Shown here one piece after another: positions 58,790 to 64,000 of a stretch of DNA of 64,000 bases. Both the position numbers and the translations under genes were made by a program. Source of the DNA: Nitratireductor thuwali (GTDB lineage Bacteria; Pseudomonadota; Alphaproteobacteria; Rhizobiales; Rhizobiaceae); the NCBI RefSeq assembly GCF_036621415.1, contig NZ_CP030941.1, positions 2,540,001-2,604,000 on the forward strand, read 5' to 3'. How positions within the stretch are numbered: the stretch's first letter is position 1; every line of letters starts with the position of its first letter. The notes beneath the pieces were generated by a model, which ran no database searches, had not been told where the DNA came from, and saw nothing but the letters and a program-made list of their open reading frames with translations.

Positions 58790-58864
58790 GCGGGCGTAGT
58801 TCAGTGGTAGAACGTCAGCTTCCCAAGCTGAATGTCGTCGGTTCGATCCCGATCGCCCGCTCCA
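58790..58864 (+). tRNA. tRNA-Gly (anticodon CCC)
   Basis: A 75-base cloverleaf has acceptor GCGGGCG/CGCCCGC, D arm GTTCAGTGGTAGAAC, anticodon stem TCAGC/GCTGA with loop TTCCCAA (anticodon CCC), T arm GTCGG-TTCGATC-CCGAT, discriminator T and an encoded CCA. It should read GGG codons. Confidence 0.96.
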
Positions 58865-58957: not shown

Positions 58958-61360
58958 TCAGCGCTGCGTCATGCGCGCCAGCTTGCCGTCTTCCAGAGAG
59001 CGCAGATAGTCGATGAGTTCCGCGCCCGGCAGCGGCTTGCTGAGCAGGTATCCCTGCACCTCGTCGCAGCCCGCGCCACGCAGGATCTGCAGTTGCTCGG
59101 CGGTTTCCACGCCTTCGGCCACCGTGGTCATGCCGAGGCTGGAAGCCATGGTGATGATGGAGGCGACGATCGCATTGTGATCCTGGTTGACGCCTATTTC
59201 CTCGACGAAGACCTTGTCGATCTTGATCTGGTCGACCGTGAACTTCTTAAGATAGCTGAGCGAGGAGTAGCCCGTTCCGAAATCGTCCAGCGAAATCTTC
59301 ATACCCATCCTGCGCAAAACCTGCAGGTCCGCCCGCACCTCGTCATTGTCGTCGAGCAGAAGCGTTTCCGTGATCTCGAGGTGAAGCCGGTTCGACGGCA
59401 GCCCGGATTGGTGCAACGCGTCCTGCACCGTCTCAACGATGTTGCTGCGCTCGAACTGGACCGGCGATAGGTTGACGGCAACGCAAACGCCGTCGCCGAG
59501 ATCCGCGGCGAAAGCGCATGCCTTATTGAGCACCCATTCGCCTAATCCGAGGATGATCCCGGTCTCTTCCGCAACCTTGACGATCTCCTGCGGCGTTGCC
59601 GAACTGACGGTCTCGTCCTTCCAACGCAGCAGCGCCTCTACGCATGTTACATTGCCGGAGTTGATATTGGTGATCGGCTGAAAGGCCAGCTCGAACTGGT
59701 TGTCGAAGGGCGCGGCCAGAAGCAGGCTTTCGATCTCCGATTTATGCTCCATCCTTGCCGACATCTCTTCGTTGTAGAAGGCATAGGCGCCGCCACCCGC
59801 GCGCTTTGCCTCATACAGGGCCAGATCGGCGTTGCGCAGCAGCACATCGACGTCAGTCATGTCGCCGCCGCTTAGCGCTATGCCGACGCTGCCGCCGGTG
59901 AGCACTTCGCGCCCGTCGATGGTGTAGACCTCCAGCAGGGCGCTGACGAGACGTCCGGCCAGGGCCGCCGCCTGGTCGGGGTGGGTGAGGTTCCCGTGAA
60001 CCACTACAAACTCGTCGCCGCCCACCCGCGAGACCATGTCGGCCCCGCGGCAGGCGAACCGCAGCCGCCGGGCCGCTTCGCACAGGAGCTTGTCGCCGAA
60101 CGGGTGCCCGTGGGAGTCGTTGACCTTCTTGAAGTTATCGAGGTCGATGCACATGATGGAGGTGAGCCGGCTCCGCCGTCCGTCGGCGTGCAGCGTCTCG
60201 ACGAGGCGTTCGCGCAGCAACACGCGGTTGGGCAGGTCCGTCAGCGCGTCATGCCGCGCCATATGGGAAACCTTCAGCTGCGCCGTATGGCTCTCGGTCA
60301 CGTCCTCGAAAGTGGAGATCCAGCCGCCATCGTCCATCGGCTTGTGCGAAACCATCACGATGCACCCGCCGGCTATCGTCTCTATGAGAGGGTTCTGCTC
60401 CTGCCGGCTGAAAAGCCGCCTAGCGTCGCGGGATGAGCAGGTGCCGGCCGCTTCCATGCGTTGGGCCAGGGTCTCCAGCCTGGTGCCGCGTTGGACGTCG
60501 TCAAAGGACAGCCGGAACAGGTCCGCCATCCGGCGGTTGGAGACGATGAGATGGCCGTGTGGATCGAACATGGCCAGCCCGTGGGTCATGTTGTCCAGGG
60601 CCGTCTCGAACAGCTTGTTTTGTTCGCCAAGCCGGATATTGGAGGTCACGAGCTGTGCGCTTGTGCGCTGCAGATCCTCATTCGAGGCAGCGAGCGACTT
60701 GCGGGTGGCCTCCAGCAGGCGGGTTTGCCAGCTGTTGAGCACGAAAAGCCCGAAACCGCTCAGCACCAGCAGTATCGTGACGGCGGTGAACTGCCAGTGC
60801 AGGACGTAAAGCTGCCGCTGGTCGTGTGCCACCGCCTGTCCGCCGTAGCTGTTCGCCTCGGAAACGAGACCGACCAGATCGGATTCCAGCCGCCCGGTCA
60901 GTGCAAGGGCCTTCTCGATGTCGCCGCCCTCAGTGATCAGCGCGTCCACGCTCTCCATCGTCCCGGAAGCTTCCTCGATTACCTCTTGGCGGTCAGGGCT
61001 CTCGAGCGCGAATGTGCGGAAGTCGCCGGATGAGAAAAGGCTGAGCCGGTTGAGGAATATCTCGTATCGCAGACGCGCCTTCCGGATGGATGCGGCGGCC
61101 TCTTCCGATCCCTCGTTCACGAGAGCCTCAAGGAGCGCCTTCCTGAACCGAAGGAACTCGTTCACGCCCTGACCGGCGCTGAAGGCCACATTATACTGTG
61201 ACACCTCCTCGAACAGGGCCTGACGCTTGTGGACGAGAAACGAAATGTAAATCGCCGCCACAAGCAGGATCGCCATGCTGGCGGCCAGCATGTAGCGGAT
61301 CAGACGGACTGCCGTTTCCTGCCTCGACGCGGCTTTGATCCCTTGGGTGCCGGGGTACAC
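58958..61360 (-). CDS. dcpA: GGDEF-EAL dual-domain c-di-GMP enzyme, DcpA-like
   Basis: The 800-residue membrane protein has TM1 (about 20-43), a periplasmic helical domain (about 45-185), TM2 (about 191-209), and a PAS domain (about 245-360). A GGDEF domain (intact GGDEF at 447-451 and an I-site RGAD at 438-441) and an EAL domain follow. The EAL domain has EALLRW at 575-580, NLSP near 630, EITET at 662-666, and DDFGTGYSS at 692-700. It keeps motifs for both making and degrading c-di-GMP, as in Agrobacterium DcpA, whose activity is switched by pterins through PruR. The PruR-like gene sits four bases upstream in the same transcript. GTG 61360 is the start. Confidence 0.88.
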   Translation of the reverse strand: MYPGTQGIKAASRQETAVRLIRYMLAASMAILLVAAIYISFLVHKRQALFEEVSQYNVAFSAGQGVNEFLRFRKALLEALVNEGSEEAAASIRKARLRYEIFLNRLSLFSSGDFRTFALESPDRQEVIEEASGTMESVDALITEGGDIEKALALTGRLESDLVGLVSEANSYGGQAVAHDQRQLYVLHWQFTAVTILLVLSGFGLFVLNSWQTRLLEATRKSLAASNEDLQRTSAQLVTSNIRLGEQNKLFETALDNMTHGLAMFDPHGHLIVSNRRMADLFRLSFDDVQRGTRLETLAQRMEAAGTCSSRDARRLFSRQEQNPLIETIAGGCIVMVSHKPMDDGGWISTFEDVTESHTAQLKVSHMARHDALTDLPNRVLLRERLVETLHADGRRSRLTSIMCIDLDNFKKVNDSHGHPFGDKLLCEAARRLRFACRGADMVSRVGGDEFVVVHGNLTHPDQAAALAGRLVSALLEVYTIDGREVLTGGSVGIALSGGDMTDVDVLLRNADLALYEAKRAGGGAYAFYNEEMSARMEHKSEIESLLLAAPFDNQFELAFQPITNINSGNVTCVEALLRWKDETVSSATPQEIVKVAEETGIILGLGEWVLNKACAFAADLGDGVCVAVNLSPVQFERSNIVETVQDALHQSGLPSNRLHLEITETLLLDDNDEVRADLQVLRRMGMKISLDDFGTGYSSLSYLKKFTVDQIKIDKVFVEEIGVNQDHNAIVASIITMASSLGMTTVAEGVETAEQLQILRGAGCDEVQGYLLSKPLPGAELIDYLRSLEDGKLARMTQR

Positions 61361-61364
61361 GGAC

Positions 61365-61904
61365 TTACATCACCTTTATACGCGAGAGCTGCCAGACCGA
61401 TCTGGAATAGTATTTCTGGGCACTAAGATCCGGGTTGCTGTCGTAGGGATAGATGATGAACAGCGGTCCTTTGTCTCGGATGGGCATGTCTGCTCCATCC
61501 CGCTTCATCGCCAGGATCGCGCCGAATTCGGCGAAATCGGAGATGGGTATGGTCGTGCGGTAATCGTTGAGCGCGATGGCCTCGATTTCTGTTCCCGTCG
61601 CGCCGACATGCTCCATTAGCCTGGCGAGCGGTACGCCCTCGAACGTGGCGGCGCCGGTGTACCAGGGCGTGTTGGTGACGATCTCAACGGTGCCGAGCGC
61701 TTCGAGCATCTCGCGGTCGAAATGGGCTTCGCCATCCACATTGGTGTTCTCGATTTCCCCTTCGATGACGAGGATGGGATCGCCGGTTGGCATCGCCAGC
61801 GTTTGGCTCCAAGCGACCGGCTGCAACCCGTAGGTGACCAAGATGCCTATGCATACGACCAACGGCAACGATCTTGCGCGAAAACTGAATATGGCGGACA
61901 TCAT
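61365..61904 (-). CDS. pruR: PruR-like periplasmic protein with molybdopterin/SUOX fold
   Basis: The 179-residue product has a signal peptide (LPLVVCIGILVTYGLQPVAW, cleavage near WSQ) and a small sulfite-oxidase-type domain: PWYTGAATFEGVPLARLMEHVGA, then ALNDYRTTIPISDF, IRDKGPLFIIYPYD, and a closing RSVWQLSRIKVM. There is no molybdenum-coordinating Cys (no cysteine at all in the mature part), consistent with pterin binding and no catalysis. In Agrobacterium a periplasmic protein of this size and fold, PruR, binds pterins and steers DcpA. The start (M at 61904 or 61901) is unambiguous within one residue. Assignment is by fold, size and the adjacent GGDEF-EAL gene. Confidence 0.8.
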   Translation of the reverse strand: MMSAIFSFRARSLPLVVCIGILVTYGLQPVAWSQTLAMPTGDPILVIEGEIENTNVDGEAHFDREMLEALGTVEIVTNTPWYTGAATFEGVPLARLMEHVGATGTEIEAIALNDYRTTIPISDFAEFGAILAMKRDGADMPIRDKGPLFIIYPYDSNPDLSAQKYYSRSVWQLSRIKVM

Positions 61905-62105
61905 CTTCTTCTACCTGAGCTTGTAGGGCATCCACAAATTTTCACAGACTCTAGCACATATAGGGCTAAGAGCATGTTAACATTGCACTTCCAGGGAACA
62001 TGCGGCCGCAGTGGCCAAACAGAAATATTGGCGCAGGCACTAAAAAAAGCTGATACAAGCGACTTCATTCGCTAAAGCTTCGCTAACAAGGCATGGATAC
62101 TGACC
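61905..62105. other. Divergent promoter region pruR / PTPS-like gene
   Basis: About 200 AT-richer bases between two divergent genes. No hairpin or known operator is obvious. The region should hold promoters for both; co-regulation of the pterin-related genes is possible but unproven. Confidence 0.4.
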
Positions 62106-62462
62106 GTGACAAAGCCAGTTGAGACCTACAAAGAATTCACGTTCGAGGCCGCACATGAGCTACCGCCTTATTCAGGGCTGCACGGCCATTCGTTCAAGGT
62201 GCGTATCGCCCTCACAGGAGAGCCGGATCCCAAGTTTGGCTGGTCCGCCAACCTGTACGAGGTCGAGCGCAAGATAGAAGAGATCCACAAGACGCTGGAT
62301 CACGGCTATCTGAACCAGGTAGAGGGTCTTTCCGTCCCTTCCTTGGAAAATATCGCGGCGTGGATCTGGCACAAGCTGCATGCTGACCTGCCGGCCATGA
62401 GCGAGGTTGCTGTCTCCCGGGGTCCCGACGGCCAGGCTGAAGGCTGCGTCTACCGCGGCTGA
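62106..62462 (+). CDS. 6-carboxytetrahydropterin synthase (QueD)-like protein, catalytic Cys missing
   Basis: The 118-residue protein is of the PTPS/QueD tunnel fold. It aligns with E. coli QueD at the start (FTFEAAHELP) and end (EGCVYRG). The three zinc ligands His17, His26 and His28 (AAH and HGH) are present and the LDHGYLN motif keeps its Asp/His. The stretch that should hold the catalytic Cys (CGRLHGH in QueD) is shortened to YSGLHGH, the IDF segment is NLY, and the KET motif near the C-terminus is SRG. So normal QueD chemistry is unlikely; it may bind or isomerise another pterin. GTG 62106 is the start; divergent from the PruR-like gene. Confidence 0.8.
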   Translation: MTKPVETYKEFTFEAAHELPPYSGLHGHSFKVRIALTGEPDPKFGWSANLYEVERKIEEIHKTLDHGYLNQVEGLSVPSLENIAAWIWHKLHADLPAMSEVAVSRGPDGQAEGCVYRG

Positions 62463-62546: not shown

Positions 62547-62810
62547 GTGTCCGCTCTGACCAGATTCCTGGGCGACAGCCCATTGCGCGTGTTGATAAAG
62601 CTCCTGATCGTCTCGTTCATCGTGGGCTTCATCATGAGCGTGTTCAACTGGTCTCCGCTGGATGTCTATTATTCGCTGCGCGACACGGTTCTGGGCATCT
62701 GGAACATGGGCTTCGAAGCGCTGGGAAGGCTCGGCGGATACATCCTGCTGGGCGCCTTCATCGTCGTACCGGGCTTCATCATCCTGAGGCTGCTGAGCTA
62801 CCGACGCTAG
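62547..62810 (+). CDS. DUF6460 small membrane protein
   Basis: The 87-residue protein has two hydrophobic helices (VLIKLLIVSFIVGFIMSVF and YILLGAFIVVPGFIILRLL) separated by SPLDVYYSLRDTVLGIWN, a pattern seen in the rhizobial DUF6460 family of unknown function. GTG 62547 is the start. No functional context is clear beyond co-orientation with the PTPS-like gene 84 bases upstream. Confidence 0.8.
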   Translation: MSALTRFLGDSPLRVLIKLLIVSFIVGFIMSVFNWSPLDVYYSLRDTVLGIWNMGFEALGRLGGYILLGAFIVVPGFIILRLLSYRR

Positions 62811-62918: not shown

Positions 62919-64000
62919 GTGGACCACGCTGCCAAGGAACACATACAACCACCGTTCGAGGTGACCAACAGGCGCGTTCTGACCATTGCCGTGCCCATGA
63001 CGCTCGCCTATCTCACCACGCCCCTTCTGGGCCTGGTCGATACGGCGGTGGTCGGGCAATTGGGGGATGCGGCCATGCTCGGCGGCCTGGCGGCGGGCGC
63101 GATCGTGTTCGACGTTGTCTTCAACACTTTCAACTCGCTGCGTTCGGGTACGACGGCACTGGTGGCTCAGGCCTTCGGACGCGGCGGCGCACGGGAAGAG
63201 CAGGCGGTTCTGTTGCGTTCGTTGGCGCTTGCCGTGGGGCTGGGTATCGCGATCATCCTCATGGGACCGCTGATTTCGGCCGCCGGCGTGTGGTTCATCG
63301 ATCCGCAGGCGGGTGTCGCCGAGGCCATGCGGACCTATATCGCGATCCGCATTCTGGCAGCGCCGCTGACGCTGATGAACTACGCCATACTCGGCTACGT
63401 CTTGGGACGGGGCGAGGGCGCGACGGGCCTTCTCCTGCAGATCTTGCTTAACGGTGCGAACATCGCTCTGTCCCTTTATTTCGGGCTGGCGCTTGGCTGG
63501 GGTCTGGAGGGCGTCGCATGGGGCACGGTCGGGGGCGAACTGCTGGCTGTGCTCGGCGGGGGCGCCGTCCTGCTGCATCGCTTTGCCGGACAGCCGCGTC
63601 CCCGGCGTGCGCATGTGTTCGACATCGATGCGATGCTGCGCATGATCGCGCTCAACGGCGACATAATGATCCGTTCCTTCACGCTTTTGGCCGCCTACGC
63701 GCTGTTCACGCGGCAGGGCGCGCAACTCGGCACCGTGACGCTCGCGGCCAACGCCGTACTGATGAACTTCTTCTTCATAGCGGGTTACTTTCTCGACGGC
63801 TTCGCAACCGCCGCAGAGCAGTTGGTGGGGCGTGCCGTGGGCGCGCGCCATTTGCCTGCCTTCCGCAGGACGGTGTTCCTGAGCACCCTTTGGGGGCTTG
63901 TTCTGGCGCTGGGCGGCACCGCGGTCTTCTACTTCTTTGGCGAGGCGCTGATCGCGCTCATCACCACAGCGCCCGATGTGCGCGCCGTCGCATTGCAATA
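62919..64000 (+). CDS. MATE family efflux transporter (DinF-like), cut by window end
   Basis: The frame is open from GTG 62919 to the last base, giving about 360 residues of a ~440-residue protein; the C-terminus lies beyond the window. The N-terminus FEVTNRRVLTIAVPMTLAYL is followed by LLGLVDTAVVGQLGDAAMLGG, the MATE/DinF signature, then LRSGTTALVAQAFGRG and GYVLGRGEGATGLLLQI, and many hydrophobic helices. It exports cationic drugs or organic compounds with sodium or protons; substrate unknown. A downstream GTG (VTNRRVL) is another possible start. Confidence 0.88.
   Translation, partial: MDHAAKEHIQPPFEVTNRRVLTIAVPMTLAYLTTPLLGLVDTAVVGQLGDAAMLGGLAAGAIVFDVVFNTFNSLRSGTTALVAQAFGRGGAREEQAVLLRSLALAVGLGIAIILMGPLISAAGVWFIDPQAGVAEAMRTYIAIRILAAPLTLMNYAILGYVLGRGEGATGLLLQILLNGANIALSLYFGLALGWGLEGVAWGTVGGELLAVLGGGAVLLHRFAGQPRPRRAHVFDIDAMLRMIALNGDIMIRSFTLLAAYALFTRQGAQLGTVTLAANAVLMNFFFIAGYFLDGFATAAEQLVGRAVGARHLPAFRRTVFLSTLWGLVLALGGTAVFYFFGEALIALITTAPDVRAVALQ

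Follow-up and report, generated by a model that had tools for sequence, protein, structure and literature searches.

The window analysed here, 64,000 nucleotides of Nitratireductor thuwali DNA (contig NZ_CP030941.1, positions 2,540,001 to 2,604,000), holds at 58958-62462 a putative switch, of a kind known from bacterial biofilm control, linking pterins to cyclic di-GMP (c-di-GMP) and, divergent from it, a gene for a protein of the PTPS/QueD fold. The dcpA-like gene (58958-61360, minus strand) encodes an 800-residue membrane protein with PAS, GGDEF and EAL domains in Pfam and lies 3' of the pruR-like gene (61365-61904, minus strand; 179 residues, Oxidored_molyb fold, Pfam 29.6 bits), from which it is separated by 4 bases. 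The PTPS-like gene (62106-62462, plus strand) encodes 118 residues and belongs to a pruR-linked subfamily with a short, cysteine-less loop; the 201 bases between it and the pruR-like gene (61905-62105) contained no promoter-like (sigma-70) match. The open reading frame coordinates agree with an earlier note on this DNA, which had placed the first two genes four bases apart on one strand and a PTPS-family gene 201 bases away in divergent orientation.

The PruR-like protein matches PDB entry 7kos, "Pterin Binding Protein", with an E-value of 3.7e-54, and 7KOS is named as the PruR structure in PMC13259868, which also gives Tyr104 and Trp160 as the pterin-contact residues of Agrobacterium tumefaciens PruR. 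In the 7kos alignment their counterparts in the window protein, at a constant offset of 11, are the identical Tyr115 and Trp171, so that the proposed PruR-like candidate is borne out by both the structural match and the retained contact residues; its export is predicted, as judged by eye from the N-terminus. The DcpA-like protein exceeds the Pfam cut-offs for EAL (227 bits) and GGDEF (136 bits), matches PAS as well, and carries GGDEF at residue 447, EALLRW at 575 and DDFGTG at 692; its DcpA-type periplasmic region recurs adjoining PruR in related loci. Its assignment to DcpA stands as far as the PAS-GGDEF-EAL architecture beside pruR is concerned and is qualified by the WX7E motif, held by "the vast majority" (PMC13259868), which is absent from the whole window protein and has F-x7-E in its place (located by eye). 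The locus resembles that of A. tumefaciens, where pruR-dcpA is a two-gene operon (PMC13259868), in the gene pair itself, the PruR fold with both pterin-contact residues, the GGDEF-EAL DcpA and a PruA-type reductase in the genome, but differs in the F for W of WX7E and in the linked PTPS gene, to which some relatives add folE, EamA or PACE genes.

The PTPS-like protein scores 87.5 bits against the Pfam PTPS family and falls under the NCBIfam QueD equivalog cut-off (74.7 versus 89.25 bits). It shares with QueD/PTPS-I (COG0720) the zinc histidines, the L-D-H-x-Y-L-N and P-x-x-E-N motifs and the fold, since an AlphaFold2 model (mean predicted local distance difference test score 92.8) matched QueD in Foldseek with a template modelling score of 0.87 and an E-value of 2.7e-12; no signal peptide was seen in its sequence. 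In contrast with Pseudomonas aeruginosa and Escherichia coli QueD, the loop that bears the QueD cysteine is six residues shorter, and the C-terminal H/K-E-T-C-T-x-G-C stretch is replaced; the presence of R-G-x2-G-x2-E and the missing queuosine context further set it apart from QueD/PTPS-I. A 2016 review gives CxxxHGH, CxxxxxHGH and ExxHGH as COG0720 signatures (PMC5041015). The window protein reads PPYSGLHGH in this region and fits none of the three compared, the corresponding places holding Y, P and S; the last two of these set it apart from PTPS-II and PTPS-III, members of the same superfamily, and the comparison stopped short of the PTPS-IV, V and VI motifs.

An 8-residue loop was found in all 120 of the listed homologues, from 233 found. 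We then aligned 186 distinct short-loop sequences, comprising the window protein, the listed homologues and locus genes chosen by that loop. Histidines 17, 26 and 28, whose zinc role, like the catalytic roles below, we take over from E. coli QueD, are invariant (186/186), D65 is kept in 171 of 186, and a new C-terminal signature, R-G-x2-G-x2-E, has R105, G106 and E112 in 185 of 185. The nearest named relative in the locus set, Nitratireductor luteus (L031), shares 94% identity in the PTPS-like protein and 70% in PruR, and the PTPS-like gene is under purifying selection, with a nonsynonymous divergence (dN) of 0.026 against a synonymous divergence (dS) of 0.86 (dN/dS about 0.03), compared with dN 0.173 and dS 0.849 for pruR and dN 0.096 and dS 0.574 for dcpA. 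Taken together, the conserved signature, the low dN/dS and the QueD-like fold indicate a constrained protein rather than a decaying QueD.

Conserved adjacency of pruR and the PTPS-like gene, which the earlier note had proposed to look for in relatives, was found in named genomes and in an order-wide sample. The named-genome set comprised the best 80 of at least 532 confirmed relatives, a selection that leans to close relatives; 66 of its loci hold 67 short-loop PTPS genes, and the remaining 14 each hold a long-loop gene. A pruR gene lies within 3 kb of 60 of the 67 short-loop genes, and 66 of the 67 have at least one of pruR, a gene of dcpA type and a dedicated folE paralog as a neighbour. Three gene orders occur: divergent (28), PTPS upstream and co-directional (18), and PTPS downstream and co-directional (14). 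The last is found in Microvirga in 13 of 14 cases; the remaining case is in L068, where the second PTPS copy has its closest pruR in the adjacent module. This locus, in a metagenome-assembled genome labelled Nitrosovibrio that is perhaps a misbinned acetobacterial contig, carries the tandem modules PTPS-folE-pruR-dcpA and PTPS-folE-dcpA. Among the long-loop genes, only one of 14 has a PruR (L071, where the partner is a histidine kinase). The PTPS-like protein also has matches on plasmids of Paroceanicella, Aminobacter and Microvirga. In the three plasmid regions that were read, the gene has the 8-residue loop and is annotated as 6-carboxytetrahydropterin synthase with a queuosine Gene Ontology term. 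In two of these regions the gene adjoins EAL and "molybdopterin-dependent oxidoreductase" genes, and in the third it adjoins GTP cyclohydrolase I and EAL genes, with no PruR listed.

In the order sample (397 genomes, the window's own included), the PTPS-like protein used as query (A2) found matches at an E-value of 1e-10 in 134 genomes, and PruR is present in 120. The short form occurs in four genomes (G000, which is the window's own, G391, G145 and G384) and stands beside PruR in all four. Loop length was read for the best 30 places, lower-scoring places being left out, and gave an 8-residue loop in four, a 14-residue loop in 25 and an unreadable one in L116. A less similar A2 match (at most 126 bits) coexists with PruR in 25 genomes, and in none of the 22 with both places listed do the two lie within 50 kb on one contig. 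In the class sample (385 genomes), A2 matched at 1e-30 in 27, with short forms in two: G000 and G597, the latter holding two short copies, one of them beside PruR. In a further genome of this sample, G623, PruR is accompanied by a gene whose loop has 15 residues (L217); a loop of that length also characterises the gene adjoining PruR in L071, and the two loci may preserve an earlier stage of the association.

The genomic context is richer than the earlier note knew, including a dedicated folE paralog, candidate exporters and an alternative PTPS of QueD2 type. The folE paralog adjoins 21 of the 67 short PTPS genes and none of the 14 long ones in the named-genome set; two representatives score 150 and 159 bits against PF01227 and lie below the NCBIfam cut-offs. 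At an E-value of 1e-50 it was found in five of the 397 order-sample genomes, in all five at PruR, with four copies no more than 0.3 kb away and the PTPS gene lying in between in G391; another copy, in G145, is truncated where its contig stops and was seen in the locus alone. An EamA gene lies between the folE paralog and pruR in L060, L061, L063 and L065 (checked with Pfam in L061 and L063) and is a candidate pterin exporter. In a second type of Microvirga locus, a PACE efflux gene lies between the short PTPS gene and folE (checked in L088 and L098), with a DcpA-type gene present and PruR unrecognised. Furthermore, PruR loci lacking the short PTPS in G324, G411 and G263 hold the folE paralog with a QueD2-type PTPS that keeps CxxxHG (closest PDB entry 7v0f, E-value 1e-4). 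This QueD2-type gene adjoins the folE paralog and pruR-dcpA in L252, L253 and L255 (checked with Pfam in L252 and L253), and its presence in three clusters indicates that different COG0720 members occupy the position paired with FolE. In G367, folE stands beside PruR, and neither a short nor a QueD2-type PTPS was found.

We inferred a tree of 92 PruR proteins by a quick method. The PTPS-linked PruR proteins cluster, the PTPS label requiring 5 changes against 24 in shuffles, in a tree with several long branches, one fragment (L100) and many unresolved forks. Three folE-only PruR proteins group with the linked ones and a fourth (L149) stands alone. Other Nitratireductor PruR proteins come from a different branch than that of the window, which suggests transfer of the module. 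At PruR residue 163, Q is found in 45 of 51 PTPS- or folE-linked proteins (three commonest letters) and E in 22 of 24 unlinked ones; this column was set aside as a mark of specificity because it is confounded by phylogeny.

Reactions of the QueD and PTPS types need no reductase to give tetrahydropterins, and we considered the short PTPS as a substitute for PruA. The window's own genome encodes a PruA-type short-chain dehydrogenase/reductase (SDR) at G000:C1:3643385-3644110, with the motifs TGGAKRIG and YTLSK and a score of 192 bits, ahead of the next SDR (156) but below the NCBIfam cut-off of 288. A PruA is therefore present and not replaced by the PTPS-like protein. Searching 32 short-PTPS genomes with NF006598 (L036 excluded) gave no match at the NCBIfam cut-off; SDRs with TGx3RxG and YxxxK were nevertheless present in all 28 of these genomes that were fetched, and the substitution was rejected. 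The four unfetched genomes have matches that are strong in G090 and G536 (192 and 212 bits) and weaker in G145 (67% complete; 168 bits) and G514 (best E-value 9.6e-44). The same motifs occur in every one of the 11 genomes fetched that have PruR but no short PTPS, and are missing from a second SDR of the window's own genome used as control. Vibrio cholerae is described as having no PruA-type reductase in PMC13259868.

These data suggest, with a probability that we put at roughly 0.6, that the PTPS-like gene is a dedicated part of the PruR-DcpA switch, supplying or altering the side chain of its pterin ligand. The signal-producing or signal-modifying role itself is suggested by the gene linkage. 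FolE would make 7,8-dihydroneopterin triphosphate, on which, or on its dephosphorylated form, the PTPS-like protein, presumably cytoplasmic and zinc-binding, would act; PruA may then reduce the pterin ring. The ligand would pass to the periplasm, probably by way of the clustered EamA or PACE transporter in some relatives, and by analogy with the A. tumefaciens model, in which pterin-bound PruR shifts DcpA towards c-di-GMP breakdown (PMC13259868), its binding to PruR would set DcpA in that direction. In the window genome, FolE (a single gene at C1:318871, away from the window genes) and PruA would be drawn from elsewhere on the chromosome, and in some relatives FolE would come from the paralog in the cluster.

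Several observations weigh against this interpretation. The short PTPS is a minority form, present in only 4 of the 120 PruR-positive genomes of the order sample. Four loci with a DcpA-type gene and the folE paralog (L069, L088, L098 and L103) have no recognised PruR, even though their flanks are ample or nearly so; nor was one recognised in L089 (with a DcpA-type gene) or L095 (with folE), both at contig edges, and the second copy of G597 (L075) is an orphan with no partner in 8 kb upstream and 0.6 kb downstream. Two further PruR copies in the window's own genome, in L248 (G000:C1:2720500-2729500) and L249 (G000:C1:3425000-3434000), one beside a histidine kinase (DTB-like) and the other beside a GGDEF-EAL protein, have neither a short PTPS nor a folE paralog in these 9 kb regions. 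No folE, EamA or PACE gene adjoins the three window genes, and a search of 29 intergenic regions for short words and palindromes recognised no shared operator in the divergent region. In the protein itself, the histidine of the catalytic pair (H66) is kept in only 149 of 186 sequences and the residue aligned with the pterin-anchoring glutamate of QueD, which we take to be E. coli Glu110, is replaced. The earlier note's assignment to the QueD/PTPS fold stood as regards the fold and the zinc histidine triad; the QueD cysteine is missing.

The same residues underlie the chief rival, namely that the PTPS-like protein is a non-catalytic zinc- and pterin-binding partner that senses, stores, delivers or gates cytoplasmic pterin unchanged. 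A shortened loop without a cysteine (absent from all 67 short-loop locus genes), a replaced anchoring glutamate and a variable catalytic histidine would be expected of such a binder, in which the zinc site and the R-G-G-E signature are nevertheless nearly invariant. However, the loop cysteine is also absent from 13 of the 14 long-loop genes (L093 has one), though 13 of these 14 adjoin queC-like genes, so that its loss alone is no proof of inactivity; dedicated FolE nearby and the QueD2-type clusters that keep CxxxHG point to catalysis. We consider a binder a doubtful but not negligible alternative. Less probable still is that the protein removes or inactivates the pterin signal, acting as negative feedback on PruR-DcpA: the same linkage would result, and the divergent orientation in the window would allow separate control, but the folE and exporter-like genes clustered with it in relatives favour supply.

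An ordinary queuosine QueD, present here by accident, is very improbable. It would account for the fold and for the annotation of the three plasmid relatives, and 30 of 32 short-PTPS genomes exceed the low Pfam cut-off of 22 bits for QueC. At a stricter 90 bits, however, QueC is present in 22 of 32 and absent from 10, the window's own genome included, where matches to QueC are partial, covering about 60 residues and scoring at most 22.5 bits (27.5 if neighbours in the frame are included). No full-length QueC was found there in a search that left queE, queF and tgt outside its scope, and the PTPS-family gene is single-copy; with neither a full-length QueC nor a second PTPS gene, queuosine synthesis is unlikely. 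As named by eye from sequence, queC-like neighbours occur at 13 of 14 long-loop loci and at none of the 66 short ones, and queE-like neighbours at 12 long-loop loci and one short (L055). As the COG0720 signatures compared do not fit, queC-like neighbours are wanting and the window's own genome has a partial QueC and a single PTPS gene, the queuosine identity was rejected. Least credible of all is that the neighbours are co-inherited by chance or hitch-hiking, as two genes downstream of the PTPS-like gene appear to be, given that the linkage persists in several families of Alphaproteobacteria, both chromosomal and plasmid-borne, and through three gene orders, with all four order-sample carriers adjacent.

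A broader proposal, which we offer tentatively and would not rate as probable, is that the clusters are self-contained circuits that make, export and sense a pterin, comprising a folE paralog, a new COG0720 activity, EamA or PACE proteins as the first pterin exporters and a PruR-DcpA readout. The side chain would be distinct from the folate and monapterin pools, and the window would hold a reduced form in which the tailoring enzyme alone is local. The PTPS-family protein and the folE paralog are thereby candidates for determining the ligand's identity, and the EamA and PACE proteins for its export; PMC13259868 states that no efflux system for pterins is yet known, mentions folE as a general pathway gene only and contains none of the words 6-pyruvoyl, PTPS and QueD. 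The data further suggest that a group of genes annotated as queuosine synthases is tied instead to c-di-GMP control. A clustered GTP cyclohydrolase and PTPS homologue making a specialised pterin are also found in the Photorhabdus pepteridine cluster, where both are required for pepteridine A; that cluster differs in its nonribosomal peptide synthetase partner, and PruR and DcpA are unmentioned in the accessible text (PMC5384830). No paper listed by searches of the open literature describes a PTPS or folE gene beside pruR in its title or the opening of its abstract, although the founding PNAS paper may mention it.

The module is flanked in the window by three further features. Downstream of the PTPS-like gene lie genes for a DUF6460 membrane protein (62547-62810) and a MATE transporter (62919-63998), which were rejected as module parts because, among 110 loci searched, they occur in the same genus only. 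Immediately downstream of the dcpA-like gene, a tRNA-Gly (CCC) gene at 58790-58864 may have been the point of integration of the module.

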